Assembly (NCBI GenBank): GCA_017434025.1
Contig: JAFRGC010000052.1
Span: 1 to 57,217, forward strand
DNA from: Mogibacterium sp.
GTDB taxonomy: Bacteria; Bacillota; Clostridia; Peptostreptococcales; Anaerovoracaceae
Length of the DNA: 57,217 bases
Reading direction: 5' to 3'
Shown here: positions 1,634 through 57,154 of the stretch, piece by piece
Position numbering within the stretch: the stretch's first letter is position 1
Layout of the letters: each line of letters starts with the position of its first letter
Made by a program: the position numbers and the translations under genes
Notes under the pieces: generated by a model
Seen by the model: only the letters and a program-made list of their open reading frames with translations
Database searches by the model: none
Told to the model about the DNA's origin: nothing

Positions 1634-1987
1634 TGGTGGAGACGGTGGGAATTGAACCCACGTCCAAGAGCATTTCCGGACGACTTTCTCCGAGCGCAGC
1701 CGGGTCTTTGATCTCACCCTCGGAGCGTCACTCGGCGGACTATCCTCGGGCCATCCCGTTTGGTCCCCTTACGCTAACGGGAGGTCACGTAAGGGTTTTC
1801 CTGCATAAATGACGCCGGTTGCTGTGCCTGCAGGTGAACTCAGGCCGACGCGCGGGGCTGAACTATGCAGCCAGTGCGAAATTGTTGTTTGTTTTTGCGT
1901 TTCTTTTGAACGGGCACTTTTAACGTGGATCACCGCCACGGCTCGCTTATCCTCGTTCCACACACCTGTCGAAACCAGTGCGTCCCC
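1634..1987 (-). ncRNA. ssrA: tmRNA (ssrA)
   Basis: Transfer-messenger RNA that rescues stalled ribosomes together with SmpB, encoded at 8521-8997. The 5' end GGGGACG (1987-1981) pairs with CGTCTCC near the 3' end, and the CCA is encoded (1636-1634). The 3' part has the tRNA-like T arm GGTTCAATTC. The tag frame runs 1898-1863 and reads AKTNNNFALAA then TAG, ending in the usual ALAA-type degron; the resume codon is GCA. Length (354 nt) is normal. It has its own strong promoter and terminator. Confidence 0.97.
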
Positions 1988-44444: not shown

Positions 44445-47400
44445 CTAGTCGCGATTCCTCGGAATGATCTCCCACTCGATCGTGGTGTCGATGTCCGGCG
44501 CGTTGTAGTTCTCGGTGTCATAGGTCAGATACGCTTTGGCAGTGTAAGTGCCTACCGCGGAAGCCTTGTTGTCCCTGTATCTGACATCTATCGACTTCGG
44601 CAAATTCCTGAGCACGATGCTCTTCTCGTAAGCGTCATAACGGAACGGCTTGTCGTAGCTCCAGTGTACGTGCTCGGTATCGTAGTTCGCCTTCTCGATC
44701 TTCCACTTGAGATCTTCGATATCGTCGACTTCGCAGTTCTTGGCATCGTAGGTAAGTCTTGCTCTCGCGGTGTACTCACCTGCGTTGATCTTGACGTTGT
44801 CGATGTAGACTACTTCGACCTCTTTCGGCACTCCGACGAGCTTGACTTCCTTAGGTCTCTCATCGTATACGAACAGAGTGCTGCCATCGTAGTTCCATGC
44901 CATATCGTCAGTGTCGATCTTCTTCTTGAGGATCCTCCACTTCTGAACAGGCATATCTGGGATCTCATAGTTGTCTCTGTCTGCGAATTCGAGCGTTACT
45001 TCAGCAGTATAGCTGCCTGCATCCGTCGCTTTGTTGCCTGTATATGCCGCAGCAGTGACTCCTTCAGGGAGTCCTACTACCTCGACCGACTTCTCCTCGC
45101 CGTCGTATACGAAGTCACTCTCGTAGTTCCATCTCGCCTGCGACATGTCGTATTCTGCCTTCTCGATCTGCCACCAGCATCCCGGGATCGGTGCCGGATC
45201 CTCGTAGTTGAGAGGATCTGCCGCTTCGAGGGAAGCGATCGCCTGATACTCGCCGGCATCGGATGCCGCATTGTTGATGTATGTCACCTTGACGTTTTCA
45301 GGTACGTTGGTGAGTTCGACGCGTTTCTCCTGACCGTCGTAGTGGAACGCGCCTTCGTAGTCCCATTTTGCGTCAGACGCATCTGTCTTGGCCTTGAGGA
45401 TCTCCCACCTGAACTCAGGAACGGTGTACTCTCTGAAGTTCCTGTCATTCGGGTTGATCAGCTTAGCTTTCGCAAAGTAGACGCCAGCTTCTGTAGCAAC
45501 GTTGTTCTCGTACACTACATCGAATCCTTCCGGAACTCCTTCGAGTCTCATCTCGACCTGCTTGCCGCGGATCCTGTCGAGGAATCCCTGCGGAACGACT
45601 CTCTCTGCGAAGGCTATGCTCTTCGGTGTGCCGTCATAGACGAACGGCTCAGTGTAGTTCCACCTGATGCCTTCTGCATTAGCCGGCGCTTCAGCCATGT
45701 CGATCTTCCAGCTGCAGCCGCCGAACTCAGGTTTCTCGTAGTTCCTCTCATCGTACTCGAATGTTACAGATGCTTCGTATTCGCCGGAATCCGTCGCGGT
45801 ATTGCCGCTGTAGACCGGTCTTACGCCTTCCGGAAGTCCGGTGAGTCCGATCGTGACCGGGCTGCCATTGTAGACAAAACTGTCTGTGTAGTCCCACTTG
45901 ACTCCCGACATGTCGTAGGAAGTCCTGGAGATCGACCACTCCTGTGAAGGCGCGAACGGTTTGTTGCGGTTGTGCTCGTCATATTCGAGCTCTGCGCTTG
46001 CGGTGTATTCTCCGGCGTCGGTTGCCCTGTTGTTCGAGTATACCGGTACGACACCTTCCGGCAGACCTTCGAGAGAAATGCCCTTCTCTGTGCCGTCGTA
46101 TACATACTCGAGATCTCCGACCCATCTGATATCTGACAGATCATAGTCGGACTTGAGGATCTCCCATTCACAGTCGCCTATGACCGGAATGTTGTAATTG
46201 CCGCTGTTCGCCGGGACCAGCTCTGCGTGAGCTGTGTACTTGCCTGCGTCTGCTGCAGTATTGCCTGTATATGTGGCGGTCAGGTAATCAGGGAGTCCCG
46301 CGAGTTCTACGGTCTTGTTCTCTCCATCATAACTGAATGCCTGTGAGTAATCCCATCTCACTCTTCTGATGTCTGCGTCAGCTTTCCTGATTACCCAGTC
46401 GCAGCTCATCTCTTCCGGAACGTTGAAGTTGACCGTATCCGTGATGAATCTTGCGACAGCTGTGTAGGAACCTGCATCGGTAGCAGCGTTGTTCTCGTAT
46501 TCAACACTGACATTTGCCGGGAGTCCTGTGACTTCGACCTTCTTAGGCGTTCCGTCATATGTGAACTCGTTCGTGTAGTCCCATCTGACATCCTTCATGT
46601 CGCAGTCAGCCTTGCCGATGCTCCATGGGAACTTCACGGTCTCAGGAGCTCTGAAGTTTGTATCGGTAGATCTGAATACTGCTGTTGCCAGATAGTCTCC
46701 TGCCTGGATGCCGGAGTTGCCTTCGTACTCGACCTGTACGGTCTCAGGCAGCTGTCTGAGCTCGATGCTCTTGCGCTCTCCGTCATAGACCAGTTTGCCC
46801 GGTTCATAGTCCCACTCGGTCACAGAGAGATCATAGTCTGCAGGAATGATCTCCCAGTCGCAGTCGCTGACTGCCGGTGTATTGTAGTTGGCAGGATCGG
46901 AAACAGTGAGCACTGCTTTGGCGGTGTATTTGCCGACATCAGTTGCTTCATTGCCGGTATATGCTGCTGTCACTCCATTAGGAAGCTGATCGAGCATGAC
47001 ATTCTGCGGTCTGCCGTTGAATGTCTTCGCGCCGACGCAGTCCCATCTGACAGGAGCCATCTCATAGTCGGCTTTGACGATCTGCCAGTTGCAGTTTGCG
47101 ATCGAAGGTTTGTTATAGTTCTCTTCATCGAACGGAATGAGGTCCGCGACAGCCTCGTATGAGCCCGTTACAGCAGCCGCATTGCCCGAATAGACTGCTC
47201 TGACTCCGTCAGGGAGTCCTCTCAGTACGACTTCGTGCATCCTGCCGTTGTATGTGAACTCTCCGTTGTAATTCCATTGGACTGAAGACATGTCGTAGTC
47301 AGCCTTGCGGATGGTCCATTCACAATCCTCTACCTCAGGGACTTTATAGTTGCGGCTGTCCGCGACCTTGAAGGTTACCGATGCGGTGTAAGTGCCGGCA

Positions 47401-50400
47401 TCTGTCCTGACGTTGTTCCTGTATGTCGGGAACACGCCTTCCGGCAGTCCCTTGAGCACTACTCTGTGCTCAGTCTTGTCGTATGTGAACGGCTTATCGT
47501 AATCCCAGTAGACGTGGCTCATGTCGTAGTCGCCCTTCTCGATCCTCCATGTGAGGTTGCCGAGTTTGGTCGGGACATGATTGTCCTTATCGTCAGAAAT
47601 GATATTGGCCGCAGCGATATAGGTGCCAGCCTGAACAGCTTTCGCATTACTGTACTCGACGTACGCTCCCTCAGGGATGCCTACTGCTGCTACCGACTTC
47701 TCAGTACCATCATAAACAAATGGTTCCTCATAATCCCACATTGTCATCGAGAGGTCGACCGGTGATCTGTCGATCTTCCAGTGGCATGCGCCTATCTCAG
47801 GTCTCTCGTAATTCTTCGTGTCAAATCTGAAATCCGCGTTCGCGATGTACTCGGAAGCCACTGCTGCCAGATTGCCTGTGTAGACGGCTTCCAGTCCTTC
47901 CGGAAGTCCGACGAGTTTCATTTCCTTCTGACCGCCGTCGAAGAGGAACTCTCTGGTATCCTGCCATCTGACACCGCTCATGTCGAAATCAGCCTTCCTG
48001 ACTTTCCAGTCGAGGGTCATGTCAGGAATATTGGAATTGAAGTTGTGCGCGTCAGCGACGATAAATCTTGCTATCGCGGTGTAATCGCCGGCATCTGTCG
48101 CGTCCGCATTGGTGTAGCTTACCGAAACGCCTTCCGGCACTCCGGTGAGTCTGACGGACTTCCTGGTACCGTCATAGGTGAACGGATCTGCGTAATCCCA
48201 CTGTACCTCGGACAGATCGTGCTCAGCCTTGCTGATGGTCCATGAATAGCCTACCGGGTCCGGAGCCCTGAAGTTGCTGCCGTCTACCGCGGAGAATATC
48301 GCCTTGGCAAAATATCTGCCTGCGCCTGTCTGTGTATTGTATAAGTACTCGACGTTGAGATCGTCTCCGATCTCGCTGGTCAATTCGACCGTCTTCGGTG
48401 TCCCGTCATAGACAAAGCCGCTGAAATCGGTCCATTCAAGATCATCTCTGACGATCTGAGCTCTGTTGATCGCCCATGTGCAGCCGCTGACTTCCGGAGT
48501 CTCGTAGTTCAGCTGATCGACCGGTGTCATGGTTGCGCTGGCAGCGTATTTGCCTGCCTCGACCTTGATGTTATCGGTGTATTCGACATTGATGCCTTCC
48601 GGCACGTTGACCAGATATACGCCGTGCTCTGTTCCGTCATATGTGAAAGCATCCGTGTAATCCCAGTACACGCCGCTTACGTCGAAACGCTCTCTGTTGA
48701 TCTTCCACTGGCAGTCCGCAGGCTGCTCAGCAATCATGTTGTCTGTATCGTACTTGAGGATAGCGTGAGCTTTGTACACGCCGGAATTGGACGCACTGGC
48801 GTCCTCATAATCAGCATATACGCCCTCCGGCAGTCCGACGAGTTCGACCTTCTTCATCTCACCGTCGTAAGTGAATGGGCCGGCGTAATTCCATTTTGCC
48901 TGGGACATGTCTGCGACCTGCTTGAGGATCGACCACTTGCAGGTCCTGTCATCAGGCGTGAAATAGTTGTGTGTATCAGGGTTGACGAAGTAGGCCTCGG
49001 CTTCAAAATCTCCGGCGTTGGATGCGGTGTTGCCTATGTATCTGACTTCAAGCGCTTCCGGTACACCATTGAGCTGAACGCTGTGCGGCTGGTGATCGAA
49101 GGTGAACGGTCCTCTGTAATCCCAGGATACTTCGCTCATATCGTAGGAAGCCTTGAGGATCTCCCACTCGTATTCGACCGGCCCGGTCGCGACGTAGTTG
49201 CCTCTTACGGATGCTCTCGCGAGGTACTTGCCTGCAGGAGTCTCCTCGGCGCCTTCGTAGTATACATCGGCATCTTCAGGGAGATTGGTGATCCTTACGG
49301 ACTTTGGCTCACCGTCATATACGAAGTCTTCGTATTCTGACCATGTCAGTTCAGCAGGATCGATCGCAGCTCTGCGGATCTCCCAGACGCACGGTGTGAC
49401 ATCAGCCGGCTTCTCATAATTGACGTCGTCGTATATATACTCGACAGAAGCGGTATATACTCCGGCATCAGATGCTTCATTATTCTTATATGTAACGCTC
49501 ACGCCTTCCGGAAGTCCGACGAGTTCGACCTTCTTCGGCGTTCCGTCGTATGTGAATGCCTCTGCATAGTCCCAGTGTGCCGCGGACATGTCATATGCAG
49601 CCTTCTTGATCGCCCATTCGTGTTCTCTCACGAGCAGCGGCTCATTGAAGTTCTCCTGATCGTATCCGAGATCGATCGATGCGACATAGTTGCCTGCGAG
49701 CGTAGCGACGTTGCCGGCATATTTGGAAACAAGTCCCTGCGGAATGCCTTCGACCCAAACGTGTTTAGGCTGGCCGTTGTAGGTCATGTCCTCTTCTTCC
49801 GCCCAGCGTACGCCTGCCATGTCGATGACAGCCTTCCTGATGTGGAGGGCCACCGGCTCGGAATAGCTGGTTCCTACCGTATTGGACGCGCAAAGCCTGA
49901 GCAGCCATCCGTCGCAGGATACCGGCAGGATCGTGTTGTGATCGATCGCCTGCCATGAGTCCTCTTCGCCGGTCGGGCTGATCTCGAGGTATCCCTTGAC
50001 CATCTGGTCGTTGGCGCTGACGATCTCAGGGAGTTCGAACGGTATCGGTTCGCCGAACGCAAACTCTTCGATCGGACGTACTTCTCCGATCTCCGGAGCG
50101 CTTGCCCAGATCGCGTAGAGGTCGACATCATCCTCGACACTGCGGACCTCCTGGCCCGGCAGGACCATTTTACCCTGTCCGTCCGCTGAGGTGTTCCATC
50201 CCATGAATATGTATTTCTCAGCAGGGGAATTGAACAGAGGATCCTCGATCACATACCTGTAATCAGGGACCGTCTTTCTCTCAACGACAACATTACGGCC
50301 TGCGTTCTCGTGATATCTGACGACAGCGCCTTCCGCTGAGATGACTCTCGCTCTTCTGTACTTGCCGGCTTCCTTGACCGCCAGTCTGTCCGTCGAAGTG

Positions 50401-50828
50401 CTGCCGTCTCCGTCGAGGCTGAATTTCTCGCCCAGCAGGATATCTGTCAGTCTCGCGCACTTGGCGAACATCCTGGTCATGTCCTTGCAGGATGTCGTGT
50501 CAAATGACGAGAGATCCAGTTCTCTGAGCCTGGTGCAGCCCTCGAACATGGAACGCATGTCTGTCACGCCCGTGGTGTCGAATCCACTGAGGTCAGCCTT
50601 CTCCAGACCTTTGCAGCCTTTGAAGAGCTCTGCGAGTGATGCTCCTTCAGGGAACGTTACGGTACCGATAGCAGCAGCTTCGGTGATGAGTCCGCGGAAG
50701 CTGTCCCACGGGGCTCCTGTTACAGCGGTATCGCCGGCGATACCTTCATTGATGAACAGTCTGCCTGTCTCGTCGATGCCCCAGAGGCAAGTGCCCCACT
50801 TGTCAACTTTGATGAAATTCTTTTCCAT
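44445..50828 (-). CDS. Giant repeat protein: BspA-type LRR, InlB-like module and 23 MBG/YDG-like repeats
   Basis: 2127 residues. About 55-165 is a BspA/DUF285-type leucine-rich region (ADLSGFDTTGVTDMRSMFEG). About 168-242 resembles an InlB B-repeat (FMGWNTSADGQGKMVLPG, ending VDLYAIW). From 341 to the end there are 23 repeats of about 76 residues with core W-DY-xx-F-x-YDG-x-x-K-x-V-x-L-x-GLPEGV, then NxAxDAGxYTA and a closing C-x-W-x-I-x-K. They fit MBG/YDG-like adhesion beta domains. There is no visible signal peptide, no membrane helix, no LPxTG, no SLH or cell-wall module, and the protein ends right after the last repeat. Export route and location are thus unclear. It starts a long minus-strand run (corC, secA and on). 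Confidence 0.9.
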   Translation of the reverse strand: MEKNFIKVDKWGTCLWGIDETGRLFINEGIAGDTAVTGAPWDSFRGLITEAAAIGTVTFPEGASLAELFKGCKGLEKADLSGFDTTGVTDMRSMFEGCTRLRELDLSSFDTTSCKDMTRMFAKCARLTDILLGEKFSLDGDGSTSTDRLAVKEAGKYRRARVISAEGAVVRYHENAGRNVVVERKTVPDYRYVIEDPLFNSPAEKYIFMGWNTSADGQGKMVLPGQEVRSVEDDVDLYAIWASAPEIGEVRPIEEFAFGEPIPFELPEIVSANDQMVKGYLEISPTGEEDSWQAIDHNTILPVSCDGWLLRLCASNTVGTSYSEPVALHIRKAVIDMAGVRWAEEEDMTYNGQPKHVWVEGIPQGLVSKYAGNVATLAGNYVASIDLGYDQENFNEPLLVREHEWAIKKAAYDMSAAHWDYAEAFTYDGTPKKVELVGLPEGVSVTYKNNEASDAGVYTASVEYIYDDVNYEKPADVTPCVWEIRRAAIDPAELTWSEYEDFVYDGEPKSVRITNLPEDADVYYEGAEETPAGKYLARASVRGNYVATGPVEYEWEILKASYDMSEVSWDYRGPFTFDHQPHSVQLNGVPEALEVRYIGNTASNAGDFEAEAYFVNPDTHNYFTPDDRTCKWSILKQVADMSQAKWNYAGPFTYDGEMKKVELVGLPEGVYADYEDASASNSGVYKAHAILKYDTDNMIAEQPADCQWKINRERFDVSGVYWDYTDAFTYDGTEHGVYLVNVPEGINVEYTDNIKVEAGKYAASATMTPVDQLNYETPEVSGCTWAINRAQIVRDDLEWTDFSGFVYDGTPKTVELTSEIGDDLNVEYLYNTQTGAGRYFAKAIFSAVDGSNFRAPDPVGYSWTISKAEHDLSEVQWDYADPFTYDGTRKSVRLTGVPEGVSVSYTNADATDAGDYTAIARFIVADAHNFNSNIPDMTLDWKVRKADFDMSGVRWQDTREFLFDGGQKEMKLVGLPEGLEAVYTGNLAAVASEYIANADFRFDTKNYERPEIGACHWKIDRSPVDLSMTMWDYEEPFVYDGTEKSVAAVGIPEGAYVEYSNAKAVQAGTYIAAANIISDDKDNHVPTKLGNLTWRIEKGDYDMSHVYWDYDKPFTYDKTEHRVVLKGLPEGVFPTYRNNVRTDAGTYTASVTFKVADSRNYKVPEVEDCEWTIRKADYDMSSVQWNYNGEFTYNGRMHEVVLRGLPDGVRAVYSGNAAAVTGSYEAVADLIPFDEENYNKPSIANCNWQIVKADYEMAPVRWDCVGAKTFNGRPQNVMLDQLPNGVTAAYTGNEATDVGKYTAKAVLTVSDPANYNTPAVSDCDWEIIPADYDLSVTEWDYEPGKLVYDGERKSIELRQLPETVQVEYEGNSGIQAGDYLATAVFRSTDTNFRAPETVKFPWSIGKADCDMKDVRWDYTNEFTYDGTPKKVEVTGLPANVSVEYENNAATDAGSYTAVARFITDTVNFNVPEEMSCDWVIRKADADIRRVRWDYSQAFSYDGENKTVELAGLPDYLTATYTGNTAADAGKYTAHAELVPANSGNYNIPVIGDCEWEILKSDYDLSDIRWVGDLEYVYDGTEKGISLEGLPEGVVPVYSNNRATDAGEYTASAELEYDEHNRNKPFAPSQEWSISRTSYDMSGVKWDYTDSFVYNGSPVTIGLTGLPEGVRPVYSGNTATDSGEYEASVTFEYDERNYEKPEFGGCSWKIDMAEAPANAEGIRWNYTEPFVYDGTPKSIAFAERVVPQGFLDRIRGKQVEMRLEGVPEGFDVVYENNVATEAGVYFAKAKLINPNDRNFREYTVPEFRWEILKAKTDASDAKWDYEGAFHYDGQEKRVELTNVPENVKVTYINNAASDAGEYQAIASLEAADPLNYEDPAPIPGCWWQIEKAEYDMSQARWNYESDFVYDGEEKSVEVVGLPEGVTAAAYTGNKATDAGSYTAEVTLEFADRDNYEIPDMPVQKWRILKKKIDTDDMAWNYDGSTLFVYDERPKEVKLVGVPKEVEVVYIDNVKINAGEYTARARLTYDAKNCEVDDIEDLKWKIEKANYDTEHVHWSYDKPFRYDAYEKSIVLRNLPKSIDVRYRDNKASAVGTYTAKAYLTYDTENYNAPDIDTTIEWEIIPRNRD
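44448..49808 (-). repeat. 23 tandem coding repeats of about 230 bp
   Basis: The DNA encodes 23 consecutive divergent repeats of about 76 codons. They recur as tyr-asp-gly-rich and Leu-Pro-Glu-Gly-Val segments. Repeats differ in sequence, so they are old or kept apart; repeat 19 has an extra insert of about 20 residues. Long antisense ORFs opposite this gene are a product of its composition. Confidence 0.9.
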
Positions 50829-51101: not shown

Positions 51102-51938
51102 TTAGAACTTAACGACTACAACGCCTTTGAACTCTTCCTCGATGAAGGACTTAACTGCGTCTGAGTGAAGTGCATCTACAAGAGCTTTGGTCTTCTCGCT
51201 GTCTTTGTTCTCAGCATTTACTACGATAATGTTGACATAGGTATCTTCCTGCTGCTGGTCTGTACCTTCGATAGCAACTACCTTATCCATGATGTCTGCT
51301 TCCATAGCATAGTTAGCATTGATGACACCGAATGCAAGGCTCGGGAGCTGTGTTGGGATCGTTGCAGCTTCAAGCGGTACGATCTCGACTTTGCCCTTAG
51401 GATAATCTGCGATGTCTGCTTCTGTTGCAAGTTCGCTTGCGCCGTCCTTGAGAGTGATTATGCCATTCTCTGCCAGCACCTTGAGAGCTCTTGCTTCATT
51501 GGTAGCATCGTTAGGAACACCGATCTGGTCTCCTTCAGCGATCTCATCGAGGGAAGCCTTGGTTCCTGCATAGATAGCCATCTTCTCATAGTGCATGTTT
51601 CCTACAGCAACGAGGTCTGTTCCGTTCTCTTCGTTGTACTGATCAAGATAAGGCACGTGCTGGAAATAGTTAGCGTCAACACTTCCGTCGGTTGTGAACT
51701 GGTTAGGTGTTACATAGTCAAGGCACTCGACGACTTCGAGTTCCCAGCCTGCTTCTTTCAGAGTATCTCTGGCTGCTTCGAGAATGCGTGCATGTGGTGT
51801 AGGCGATGCTGCTACTTTGATGGTTTTGTCTGCTTCTGCATCTCCGCCGCCGGAGCTGCTGCCGCCGCAAGCTGTGAGCACGCCGAGTACGAGCACAAGT
51901 ACAAGTGCGATAATGCTGATCTTTCTGATGTTCTTCAT
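51102..51938 (-). CDS. metQ: Methionine ABC transporter substrate-binding lipoprotein MetQ
   Basis: 278 residues. Lipoprotein signal ending VLTAC, then the NlpA/MetQ fold: KVAASPTPHARILEAARDTLKEAGW (in part), VTPNQFTTDGSVDANYFQHVPYLD (in part), IGVPNDATNEARALKVLAENG and NANYAMEA. It binds methionine outside the cell. The ATG at 51938 is preferred; the frame extends eight codons upstream without a site. An 87-nt gap after metI holds a short hairpin (aaccc/gggtt at 52007-52021). Confidence 0.95.
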   Translation of the reverse strand: MKNIRKISIIALVLVLVLGVLTACGGSSSGGGDAEADKTIKVAASPTPHARILEAARDTLKEAGWELEVVECLDYVTPNQFTTDGSVDANYFQHVPYLDQYNEENGTDLVAVGNMHYEKMAIYAGTKASLDEIAEGDQIGVPNDATNEARALKVLAENGIITLKDGASELATEADIADYPKGKVEIVPLEAATIPTQLPSLAFGVINANYAMEADIMDKVVAIEGTDQQQEDTYVNIIVVNAENKDSEKTKALVDALHSDAVKSFIEEEFKGVVVVKF

Positions 51939-52025
51939 GATGTTTTCCCCCTTTTCTTCCATATAATTCGAAGTGGTTTATTGAATTGTGTTATTACCTG
52001 TATATTAACCCGCCTGGGGTTTTAA

Positions 52026-52688
52026 CTAATTGATACGATTATCCGACTTCGCCACGATCCTGATTCCGACTTCCTGCAGGATCTGTACCAGCACTACCAG
52101 AACAGCTATTGTAATCCACATGATCGTCGGCTGGAATCTGTAAAGTCCGTACCTGATCGCTATGTCTCCGAGGCCTCCGCCTCCGACGGTTCCAGCCATC
52201 GCGGAGTAACCGAGAATGTTGATCGTTGCTACAGCGGCTCCATTGAGCAGGGATGGTCTGCCTTCCAGCAGGAGCACTTTCCAGATGATCTGGAAGGTAC
52301 TTGCACCCATCGCCTGTGCCGCTTCAATGACCCCGGGGTCCACCTCCATCAGCGAAGACTCGACCAGCCTCGCTACGAATGGTGCAGCTGCCACAACCAG
52401 GGCTGCTGTGATCGCGTTAGGTCCTATACTTGTTCCGATGACGATCCTTATATATGGCAGTAAAGCTATCATGAGGATCAGGAATGGAACCGATCTGATA
52501 ACATTTACTATGATGCCCATGATATTGTAGTAGACTGGCATCGGTTTAATACCGTTCGGTGAGGTAACGATCAGCGATACTCCGATCGGGAGTCCCACCA
52601 GATAGGCTATCACCGTGGCCACCACTGTCATATACAAGGTCTTGACGGTCTCTTCCGCAAGGAGGCTTATCAATTCCTGAGCTCCCAT
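52026..52688 (-). CDS. metI: Methionine ABC transporter permease MetI
   Basis: 220 residues, usual length, with five membrane helices. MetI family features: N-terminal TLYMTVVATVIAYLVGLPIG, PFVARLVESSLMEVDPGVIEAAQAMGAS (in part; the EAA coupling loop) and YSAMAGTVGGGGLGDIAIRYG. It begins immediately after the metN stop codon. Confidence 0.96.
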   Translation of the reverse strand: MGAQELISLLAEETVKTLYMTVVATVIAYLVGLPIGVSLIVTSPNGIKPMPVYYNIMGIIVNVIRSVPFLILMIALLPYIRIVIGTSIGPNAITAALVVAAAPFVARLVESSLMEVDPGVIEAAQAMGASTFQIIWKVLLLEGRPSLLNGAAVATINILGYSAMAGTVGGGGLGDIAIRYGLYRFQPTIMWITIAVLVVLVQILQEVGIRIVAKSDNRIN

Positions 52689-53726
52689 TTACTCTGTCAC
52701 CTCCTCTATTTCCTCTTCTATCTCGGTGAATTCGACGCCTTCTTTCCGGAGGTATTCCTTCTGCTTCTCCGCAAGCTCCTTGTCATCTGAGAGGCAGATG
52801 ACCATCTGGCCTTTCTGCTTATCACCGAGCACATCGAGGTCAGCGTAGAAGAAGTTTACCGGTGCTCCGGTCTCCAGGATCATACTTGCGATGATCGGCT
52901 TGTATGCATTCGCCTCGTCGAATACGAGTCGCAGTCTGTTCTTGGTGGATGTTTTGCCTGACGGTTTTTCGCGGTTCTTGCCGTCCGGGAAGAAGAGTCT
53001 GCGCGCCGCCTTGGTCTTAGGTTTCGCGAATATCTCCTGGACATCGCCTCGCTCGACGATCTCGCCGTTCTCGATCACCGCGACCTTGTTGCAGAGCTGC
53101 TTGATGACCTCCATCTCGTGAGTGATGACCACCAAAGTGATCCCTCGTTCCTCGTTGATCTGCCGCAGGAGCTTGAGGATCGACCTCGTCGTCTTAGGGT
53201 CGAGCGCCGATGTTGCTTCGTCGCAGAGGATCACTTCCGGATCTGACGCGAGCGCTCTTGCGATCGCCACTCTCTGCTTCTGCCCTCCTGACAGCTGTGA
53301 CGGGAAGGAGTGCGCTCTGTCTTCGAGATCTACGACCTTGAGAAGCTCCGTGGCTTTCTCTACTGCCTGTGCCTTAGGCACTCCCGCGATCTCCATCGGG
53401 AAGCAGATATTGCCTATCGCGTCCCTCTGCATCAGCAGATTGAACTGCTGGAAAATCATCGAGATCTTGCGCCTGTGCAGGTTGAGTTGTTTGCTCTTGA
53501 GCCCGGTGAGGACATTGCCGTCGAATATGACTCTGCCTTCGGTCGGTTCTTCGAGGAGGTTGATGGTCCTTACCAGCGTGGATTTGCCTGCGCCTGACAA
53601 TCCGATGATCCCGTAGGAGTCCCCTTTCTCGATGTCTAGATTGATGTCCTTGAGGGCGACCACCTTGCCGTTCTTGGTATCGAACTCCTTGGTCACGCCC
53701 TTGAGACTGATTATGTGTTCTGCCAT
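52689..53726 (-). CDS. metN: Methionine ABC transporter ATPase MetN
   Basis: 345 residues. ATPase motifs: Walker A GLSGAGKSTLVRTI, Q-loop MIFQQFNLL, signature LSGGQKQRVAIARALA, Walker B VILCDEATSALDP and switch His ITHEM. The C-terminal NIL domain (about 265-340) senses intracellular methionine in relatives, so there is feedback at the protein level besides the RNA attenuator upstream. AAAGGGA lies before the ATG, just after the attenuator's T tract. Confidence 0.96.
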   Translation of the reverse strand: MAEHIISLKGVTKEFDTKNGKVVALKDINLDIEKGDSYGIIGLSGAGKSTLVRTINLLEEPTEGRVIFDGNVLTGLKSKQLNLHRRKISMIFQQFNLLMQRDAIGNICFPMEIAGVPKAQAVEKATELLKVVDLEDRAHSFPSQLSGGQKQRVAIARALASDPEVILCDEATSALDPKTTRSILKLLRQINEERGITLVVITHEMEVIKQLCNKVAVIENGEIVERGDVQEIFAKPKTKAARRLFFPDGKNREKPSGKTSTKNRLRLVFDEANAYKPIIASMILETGAPVNFFYADLDVLGDKQKGQMVICLSDDKELAEKQKEYLRKEGVEFTEIEEEIEEVTE

Positions 53727-53741: not shown

Positions 53742-53775
53742 AAAAAAACGGGCCAGGTCCTAACGACCTGCCCCG
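53742..53775 (-). terminator. Attenuator terminator upstream of metN
   Basis: On the minus strand an 11-bp stem with one G-G mismatch, CGGGGCAGGTC (53775-53765) and GACCTGGCCCG (53759-53749), loop GTTAG, is followed by seven T (53748-53742). It ends 15 nt before the metN ATG and after the leader ORF, so it must be conditional for metN to be expressed from the promoter upstream. Confidence 0.92.
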
Positions 53776-53819
53776 GAATATACATGAGAAAACTCATAGT
53801 GTCGGCTTCGTTATGACCT
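53755..53819 (-). promoter_or_regulatory. Antiterminator pairing of the met attenuator
   Basis: AGGTCATAACG (53819-53809) can pair with CGTTAGGACCT (53765-53755) over 10 of 11 positions, which uses the terminator loop and part of its 3' arm. The two structures are exclusive. A small hairpin atgag/ctcat (53784-53797) lies between the two arms and would bring them together. The first arm starts 9 nt after the leader stop codon, within reach of a ribosome sitting on that stop. Confidence 0.8.
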
Positions 53820-53828
53820 TATCCTATG

Positions 53829-53891
53829 TTATATTGGCTTGCACATGCACATGCCCATCATTCCCATTTCCATCATCATTGTCTTCGACAT
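53829..53891 (-). CDS. Met-rich leader peptide of metNIQ
   Basis: 20-residue peptide MSKTMMMEMGMMGMCMCKPI; nine Met and two Cys. AAAGGAG is 9 nt before the ATG. It lies about 45 nt after the start of transcription and is followed by an antiterminator and terminator. The layout is that of classical ribosome-mediated attenuation: ribosomes stall at Met codons when charged Met-tRNA is scarce and transcription continues into metN; when Met is plentiful they reach the stop codon and mask the antiterminator arm. The role is an inference from layout; ORF, pairing and terminator are directly seen. Confidence 0.88.
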   Translation of the reverse strand: MSKTMMMEMGMMGMCMCKPI

Positions 53892-53943
53892 GTGAATGCG
53901 CTCCTTTCATAGAATAAGTCATACCTTCCCCGGTACGAGTGTT

Positions 53944-53972
53944 ACTATAACAGTGTTGATGTGCTAAGTCAA
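53944..53972 (-). promoter_or_regulatory. metNIQ promoter
   Basis: Minus-strand TTGACT (53972-53967) and TATAGT (53949-53944) with 17-nt spacing, about 45 nt before the leader ATG. Confidence 0.82.
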
Positions 53973-57078: not shown

Positions 57079-57154
57079 GCGCTCGTAGCTCAGTGGATAG
57101 AGTGTCTCACTCCGAATGAGAAGGCCGCGGGTTCGATCCCCGCCGGGCGCACCA
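57079..57154 (+). tRNA. tRNA-Arg(CCG)
   Basis: 76 nt with encoded CCA. Acceptor GCGCTCG pairs with CGGGCGC; D arm TAGCTCAGTGGATAGAG; anticodon stem TCTCA/TGAGA with loop CTCCGAA giving anticodon CCG (reads CGG); T arm GCGGGTTCGATCCCCGC. All arms pair. Confidence 0.95.

Follow-up and report, generated by a model that had tools for sequence, protein, structure and literature searches.

A methionine ABC transporter operon, metNIQ, lies on the minus strand of contig JAFRGC010000052.1 of a Mogibacterium sp. (assembly GCA_017434025.1). The whole stretch of DNA which was analysed, 57,217 nucleotides, is called the window. For each of the genes, metN, metI and metQ, the best NCBIfam model is the methionine one, all three with scores below the curated cut-offs. 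The named records nearest to the MetN protein of the window come from MAGs of rumen and gut whose labels read Mogibacterium sp., uncultured Clostridiales or Candidatus Crickella. A search of the same genome for MetE gave no match and one for MetH a partial match of about 300 positions. Both searches carry little weight; the MetH cut-off was passed in 0 of 20 genomes. Elsewhere the window contains a tmRNA gene (1634-1987, minus strand), a tRNA gene (57079-57151, plus strand) and an open reading frame (ORF) of 2127 aa (44445-50828, minus strand) with many similar repeats, by appearance of the cell-surface type.

The metNIQ Leader

Upstream of metN a compact leader is apparent from the sequence itself: a short ORF with its Shine-Dalgarno (SD) sequence, an intrinsic terminator and several alternative pairings (Table 1). 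All elements are on the minus strand, and those named in the original prediction are at the positions it gave. The ORF has 20 codons, nine of them Met, start included, and was described correctly, apart from two Cys codons which had gone unmentioned. The antiterminator arm behind the stop codon and its partner inside the terminator are likewise confirmed. The promoter had been called good. It matches at 10 of 12 positions and a similar sequence is seen by eye at the same place in relatives; since the scan of 1.5 kb yields 2 promoter-like sites where 1.1 are expected, it is plausible, not proven. Another site which weakly resembles a promoter (9 of 12 matches, 53805-53777) is positioned just 5' of the terminator; by chance alone about one site of this kind would be expected.

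Table 1. Features of the metNIQ locus in the window
Feature	Positions	Strand	Remarks
metN, methionine ABC transporter ATPase	52689..53726	-	TIGR02314, E 1.8e-100, below curated cut-off
metI, permease	52026..52688	-	NCBIfam
metQ, substrate-binding lipoprotein	51102..51962	-	NCBIfam
Candidate sigma-70-like promoter, TTGACT-17-TATAGT	53944..53972	-	10/12 matches
P1 5' arm, CTTATTCTATG	53908..53918	-	partner 53818-53828; RNAalifold, pair counts
Shine-Dalgarno sequence of leader ORF, AAAGGAG	53901..53907	-	sequence
P2 5' arm, GCGCATTCACATG, SD end to start codon	53889..53901	-	partner 53841-53853 at ORF end; folding, RNAalifold, pair counts
Leader ORF, MSKTMMMEMGMMGMCMCKPI and stop codon	53829..53891	-	homologous SD-led ORF in 32/35 genus loci
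P2 3' arm, CATGTGCATGTGC, codons of the Met-Cys run	53841..53853	-	RNAalifold, pair counts
P1 3' arm, CATAGGATAAG, immediately 3' of stop codon	53818..53828	-	RNAalifold, pair counts
Antiterminator arm, AGGTCATAACG	53809..53819	-	starts 9 nt past stop; overlaps P1 3' arm; spacer, permutation and pair-count tests
Antiterminator partner, CGTTAGGACCT, terminator loop and 3' arm	53755..53765	-	pairs 10/11 with AGGTCATAACG
Intrinsic terminator	53742..53775	-	stem 53775-53749, T7 at 53748-53742, -20.1 kcal/mol

The fold of the leader RNA is 4.4 standard deviations below that of its shuffles. Between the antiterminator arm and the terminator there is a small hairpin (53782-53800, minus strand), also present in relatives, which is perhaps a pause hairpin. 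It keeps the sequence CTCATG; in part of the genus the pairing partner seems, by eye, to have switched from upstream to downstream.

A pattern scan of the same genome for four ATG codons spaced by one codon returned seven matches, one of them the metNIQ leader. Five of the six others lack an SD-like sequence ahead of their first ATG, and these five overlap with open frames 208-776 codons long. The sixth, a Met-rich frame of 22 codons, MVMVMVMAVAAELVMICLAE (L201, C51:25020-25040, minus strand), is preceded by an SD-like sequence and is situated opposite a 173-codon frame.

Conservation Within the Genus

A search of 36 genomes of the genus (G000 included) located a close MetN in 33; in G007, G012 and G033 no MetN match was better than about 1e-54. 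An SD-led leader ORF with 7-10 Met and 1-3 Cys codons is present in 32 of 35 genus loci (L002-L036), and all 32 are in frame with the Met-Cys core despite a variable N-terminal length. The three loci which do not show it are L016 and L023, both cut by contig ends, and L018, which has neither SD nor start. The sequence GMMGM(C/R)M is almost invariant, with a single variant, EMMGM, in L031. In a named collection, which overlaps with the other genus genomes counted, the core motif is found in 42 of 43 close loci; the exception, L086, starts about 80 bases before metN.

A covariance model, R1, built from 23 leaders, has 48 matches in 44 of 47 genus genomes, i.e., Mogibacterium-like gut MAGs. It misses G002, the genome of L016, and G007 and G012, both lacking a close MetN. 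The 44 matches which were checked all adjoin metN; the remaining four are in G630, G631, G638 and G033. A second match in G018 (L130) marks another metN copy. No R1 match was obtained in 16 genomes of other families of the same order.

Individual loci deviate: one arm is missing in L004, L014 and L026, half of the terminator in L005 and the start region in L018. These may be real losses or MAG assembly errors. In two loci, L021 (G017:C3:28579-28682) and L023 (G020:C145:3120-3228), a degenerate second leader ORF plus arm follows the terminator directly before metN. Alignment A1 comprises 31 leaders; A2 is A1 minus L004, L005 and L026, and A3 is A2 minus five near-identical leaders (L010, L011, L017, L020, L024).

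RNA Structure

RNAalifold predicts from 28 genus sequences an outer helix P1, an inner helix P2, the small hairpin and the terminator. The P1 consensus, CUUAUUCUAUG paired with CAUAGGAUAAG, encloses the leader ORF; in P2 the start region, GCACAUUCACAUG, pairs with CAUGUGCAUGUGC at the ORF end. For 7 of 34 pairs both sides are changed in at least one of these sequences, and four of the seven are terminator pairs. Among 23 sequences 97.2% of the P1/P2 cells are paired, with 3 pairs showing double changes; each measure was reached by at most 3 of 500 shuffles, and slid versions pair at most 62.3%. Thus, the predicted helices P1 and P2 are both supported by compensatory changes. In L019, L028 and L030 a Cys codon of the core is replaced by Arg and the start region changes in step. 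Therefore, part of the core conservation is due to RNA pairing, to which the peptide was sacrificed.

The arrangement is not that of a plain trp-type device. The P1 5' arm sits 5' of the SD, outside the control codons, and P2 joins SD and start to the Met-Cys codons, with the antiterminator arm outside P2. A strict trp-type layout, with a 1:2 anti-antiterminator hairpin and a region 1 which overlaps the control codons, was considered and rejected: there is no separate region 1 within the ORF. For P1 a main role as anti-antiterminator is not supported either, as the consensus overlap with the antiterminator is about 2 nt and both co-exist in truncated folds. In the sequence of the window P1 is longer and would overlap the antiterminator more than the consensus P1.

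In 28 sequences 90% of the antiterminator cells are paired, compared with at most 47.9% in slid versions. Double-change pairs number 3 in the real register and 5 in the +3 register, and 3 were reached by 22 of 500 shuffles; the count of pair types is not above that of shuffles (251/500). With resampled spacers and the 3'-arm geometry, ten genus sequences gave p values of 0.02-0.27, and those of other genera were for the most part higher. For this test eight loci were left out: automatic terminator detection had missed L021, L028, L029, L033, L173 and L182, and had picked wrong hairpins in L025 and L031. Permutation of partners gave p 0.025 for a set of 12 divergent sequences and p 0.68 for the genus; for an antiterminator via the 5' terminator arm the values were 0.15 and 0.13, respectively. 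The antiterminator is thus conserved in the genus, with weak covariation, and is not clear in most other genera; we regard it as plausible, not proven. The original prediction had asked whether Met codons, arm complementarity and terminator vary together upstream of metN in relatives. Met codons and terminator do go together, and the pairing of the arms is conserved in the genus, but with few compensations.

Leaders Beyond the Genus

In the family 197 genomes were searched; 66 have a MetN at E <= 1e-90, and upstream DNA was obtained from 64. Among the 62 regions longer than 250 bases, five of them from the genus of the window, 24 carry on the sense strand a short ORF which follows an SD and has 5 or more Met codons within a stretch of 15, compared with 1/62 on the antisense strand and 0/1240 in first-order Markov resamples. 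These 24 leaders belong to the genus of the window and ten further genera. When Met and Cys are counted jointly (at least 6 per 15 codons at metN) the figures are 28/92 sense, 0/92 antisense and 2/460 resamples, a count which includes five genus loci and one repeat genome.

In the class 391 genomes were searched, 92 have a MetN at E <= 1e-95, and 70 of the 92 were examined. The family and genus labels used here, of the form f1 and g221, are anonymous. Six Met plus Cys per 15 codons are reached in 9/70 regions: L223 (f1), L218 (f37), L220 (f59), L241 (f85), L244 (f28), L255 (f61), and L229, L242 and L243 from a single genus, g221 of f17. L232 (f85) reaches five. Every leader start which was inspected has an SD-like sequence. 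In 40 further class regions the threshold of at least 6 was reached in 5/40 sense, 0/40 antisense and 1/400 resamples. Such leaders also occur in Herbinix hemicellulosilytica (L101) and in two genomes of genus g13, family f2 (L300, L301). Herbinix hemicellulosilytica T3/55 and Peptostreptococcaceae bacterium pGA-8 are named isolates with a leader. The other examined members of f17, f37, f59, f61 and f85 have no Met/Cys leader, nor has L204, whose MetN is the nearest examined relative of the Herbinix protein. Outside the family such leaders occur here and there (8/69 class regions). Besides ten further genera of the family and Herbinix, different Met/Cys leaders are thus present in one genus each of seven other clostridial families, most of whose remaining examined members have none. 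In part of the leaderless metN loci metQ or another gene is directly upstream.

A terminator accompanies 25 of 27 leader-bearing regions outside the genus compared with 19 of 98 without a leader (Fisher p 2.5e-12, relatedness ignored; L173 and L182 counted as having no terminator). Of 19 leaders compared, 18 contain Cys as well as Met codons; either sulfur amino acid may therefore be part of the signal. The composition of these leaders is biased because they were picked for richness in Met or in Met plus Cys; all 11 leaders of the family of the window which were found by Met alone or were given hold Cys. MxMCMC-like cores recur in other genera; the leaders of other families share mainly the richness in Met and Cys.

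SAM Riboswitches and T-Boxes at metN

The metNIQ leader has no Rfam match at the gathering score nor at E up to 1. A SAM riboswitch (RF00162) at the metN of the window was accordingly rejected; matches do occur in relatives. A T-box was rejected as well, there being no Rfam T-box match in a search run without a T-box positive control. The only SAM riboswitch found in the genome of the window is located before a metK-like ORF, which we take to be metK.

Among same-order loci outside the family (L038-L048) 7 of 11 have a SAM riboswitch at metN; in the four remaining ones a metQ-like end is seen by eye directly upstream of metN. L048 possesses two SAM riboswitches in tandem. Further ones are positioned at metN of L302, L303, L102, L104 and L098, and L302 and L303 are from the same family as L300 and L301 with their Met leaders. 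By Rfam no SAM riboswitch was detected in the leader-bearing loci searched, in 20 family loci where no leader was recognised, or in the leaderless class loci searched. Many metN genes therefore have neither device.

Folding and the Proposed Switch

We consider it probable, on the features and their conservation, that the element is a ribosome-mediated transcription attenuator of metNIQ. Sensing of Met-tRNA charging, perhaps also of Cys-tRNA charging, would be the best reading of its codons. Translation of the ORF, stalling, the direction of the response and the roles of P1 and P2 we infer as follows. RNA polymerase would make the leader RNA and a ribosome would translate the short ORF. With Met-tRNA, perhaps also Cys-tRNA, scarce, the ribosome would stall within the Met/Cys codons and leave the sequence behind the stop codon free. 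P1 could close around the ORF, AGGUCxUAACG would capture the terminator loop and 3' arm, and metNIQ would be transcribed. With ample Met the ribosome would reach the stop codon and cover the nucleotides directly behind it, to which belong the 3' arm of P1 and the edge of the antiterminator arm, and the terminator would form. For this exact path we see about an even chance. In the original prediction the ribosome on the stop codon was to cover the antiterminator arm; with the footprint assumed here it would mainly cover 53828-53820, i.e., only the edge of the arm.

Folding calculations with assumed ribosome footprints did not yield a clean switch. In full-length folding of two sequences the terminator wins at every ribosome position tried. 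In RNA truncated within the terminator, P1 and the antiterminator can co-exist when the ribosome is absent or at the Met codons, two situations which give about the same picture. A ribosome at the last codon of the truncated RNA abolishes P1 in L002, L006 and L022, the three sequences that have it; L035 has no P1 in that register. The antiterminator falls only in L022 under these conditions and stays or rises in L002 and L006. In the three sequences with P1 a ribosome at the initiation stage weakens both P1 and the antiterminator. By these models P1 would appear to favour the antiterminator or, at the least, to leave it unhindered. A point which counts against the attenuator reading is that low Met also lowers initiator fMet-tRNA.

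Alternative Explanations

Peptides can themselves arrest the ribosome; TnaC does so in response to Trp. By analogy the nascent chain MxMGMMGMCMC might arrest the ribosome in response to Met, SAM or some other sulfur compound as ligand, with the arrest setting the RNA fold. The nearly invariant core of the genus and the related cores in other genera would fit such a sensor. Yet the core has undergone Cys-to-Arg changes, each matched by a compensating change of the RNA start region (L019, L028, L030), the residues before the stop vary, and other families retain mainly the Met/Cys richness; we regard this explanation as unlikely. The conserved P1/P2 and terminator structure might alternatively suggest a riboswitch which binds a metabolite and to which the ORF is incidental or merely a folding aid. 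The reading frame, however, is preserved despite indels, Met/Cys codons recur in different leader sequences, the structure model fails to find anything in the 16 same-order genomes of other families, and even at the permissive E value Rfam gives no match, all of which makes a riboswitch slightly more unlikely still.

Met/Cys-rich peptides can bind soft metals. The ORF might thus encode a small protein which acts in trans, e.g., in metal binding, with the terminator belonging to its own gene, and the weak site just 5' of the terminator might start metNIQ without the leader, although the scan would yield about one site of this quality at random. Against this stand the position at metN of all 44 checked model matches out of 48, the divergence of the sequence with mainly Met and Cys retained, and a terminator which stands before metN with a competing pairing. 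A protein acting in trans is accordingly very improbable.

Relation to Known Systems

Control by riboswitches and T-boxes is well known for the methionine genes of Firmicutes. The SAM (S-box) riboswitch RF00162 and the Met T-box (PMC3771891) likewise act on these genes at the RNA level. These RNAs, however, bind a ligand or a tRNA and have no leader ORF, and the S-box at metN of several relatives is absent from metN of the window. E. coli trpL is a trp-type ribosome-mediated attenuator. With trp/his-type attenuators such as trpL and the Listeria ilv-leu leader rli60 the metNIQ leader shares a short ORF rich in regulatory codons and an intrinsic terminator before the operon, with which a predicted antiterminator would compete. 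It differs in its Met (and Cys) codons, its importer operon, the pairing of ribosome binding site and start with the ORF end and the outer helix around the ORF; in addition, P1 does not clearly act as an anti-antiterminator. A trp-type Met attenuator, as originally predicted, is thus upheld in its Met-rich ORF, its terminator and a plausible antiterminator, in its conservation in the genus and its recurrence elsewhere in Clostridia, but not in its layout.

In Firmicutes attenuation by leader peptides has been described with other amino acids and at other genes: examples are rli60 of Listeria (PMC5864092), a leucine-rich ilv attenuator peptide in Staphylococcus aureus (PMC5794164) and histidine leaders in bacilli (PMC2965389). 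For Streptomyces lividans TK24 a leader peptide metL, MSTTSDRTPATEATTTPGARCMCRRMCAF, was proposed at metNIQ; according to its authors it is leaderless and without a typical Rho-independent terminator (PMC8079986). As printed there, it also contains Met and Cys codons (CMCRRMCAF), but has 3 Met in 29 residues, start included, is from another phylum, and its likeness is limited to Met and Cys. For methionine operons of Actinobacteria no conserved RNA structure was reported in 2005 (PMC1262725). The main text of PMC6429828 does not contain the word methionine. Among the open-licence papers listed in our searches there was no Met leader attenuator in Firmicutes. Within that scope the original remark, that no described example in this group was known, would stand for Met; leaders for other amino acids are known there, and a Met/Cys one has been proposed in Streptomyces lividans.

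The observation is real, and it extends more widely than the original prediction could have known. A Met-sensing attenuator is the best reading, to which the sensing of Cys may be added, with the switch mechanism inferred. More tentatively, and with a probability somewhat short of even, one may envisage a class of sulfur amino acid attenuators at metNIQ across Clostridia which reads the charging of tRNA-Met and tRNA-Cys, arose or diverged many times and exchanged places with SAM riboswitches within families; in the genus of the window the leader ORF would have fused with a hairpin which also gates its own ribosome binding site.

The analysis marks unannotated short ORFs as likely regulators. 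If the reading is true, a codon-reading Met device at the importer in several clostridial families would be a third solution beside riboswitch and T-box. It would also allow one to test how a Met attenuator copes with a start codon which itself needs Met-tRNA, and why Cys accompanies Met.
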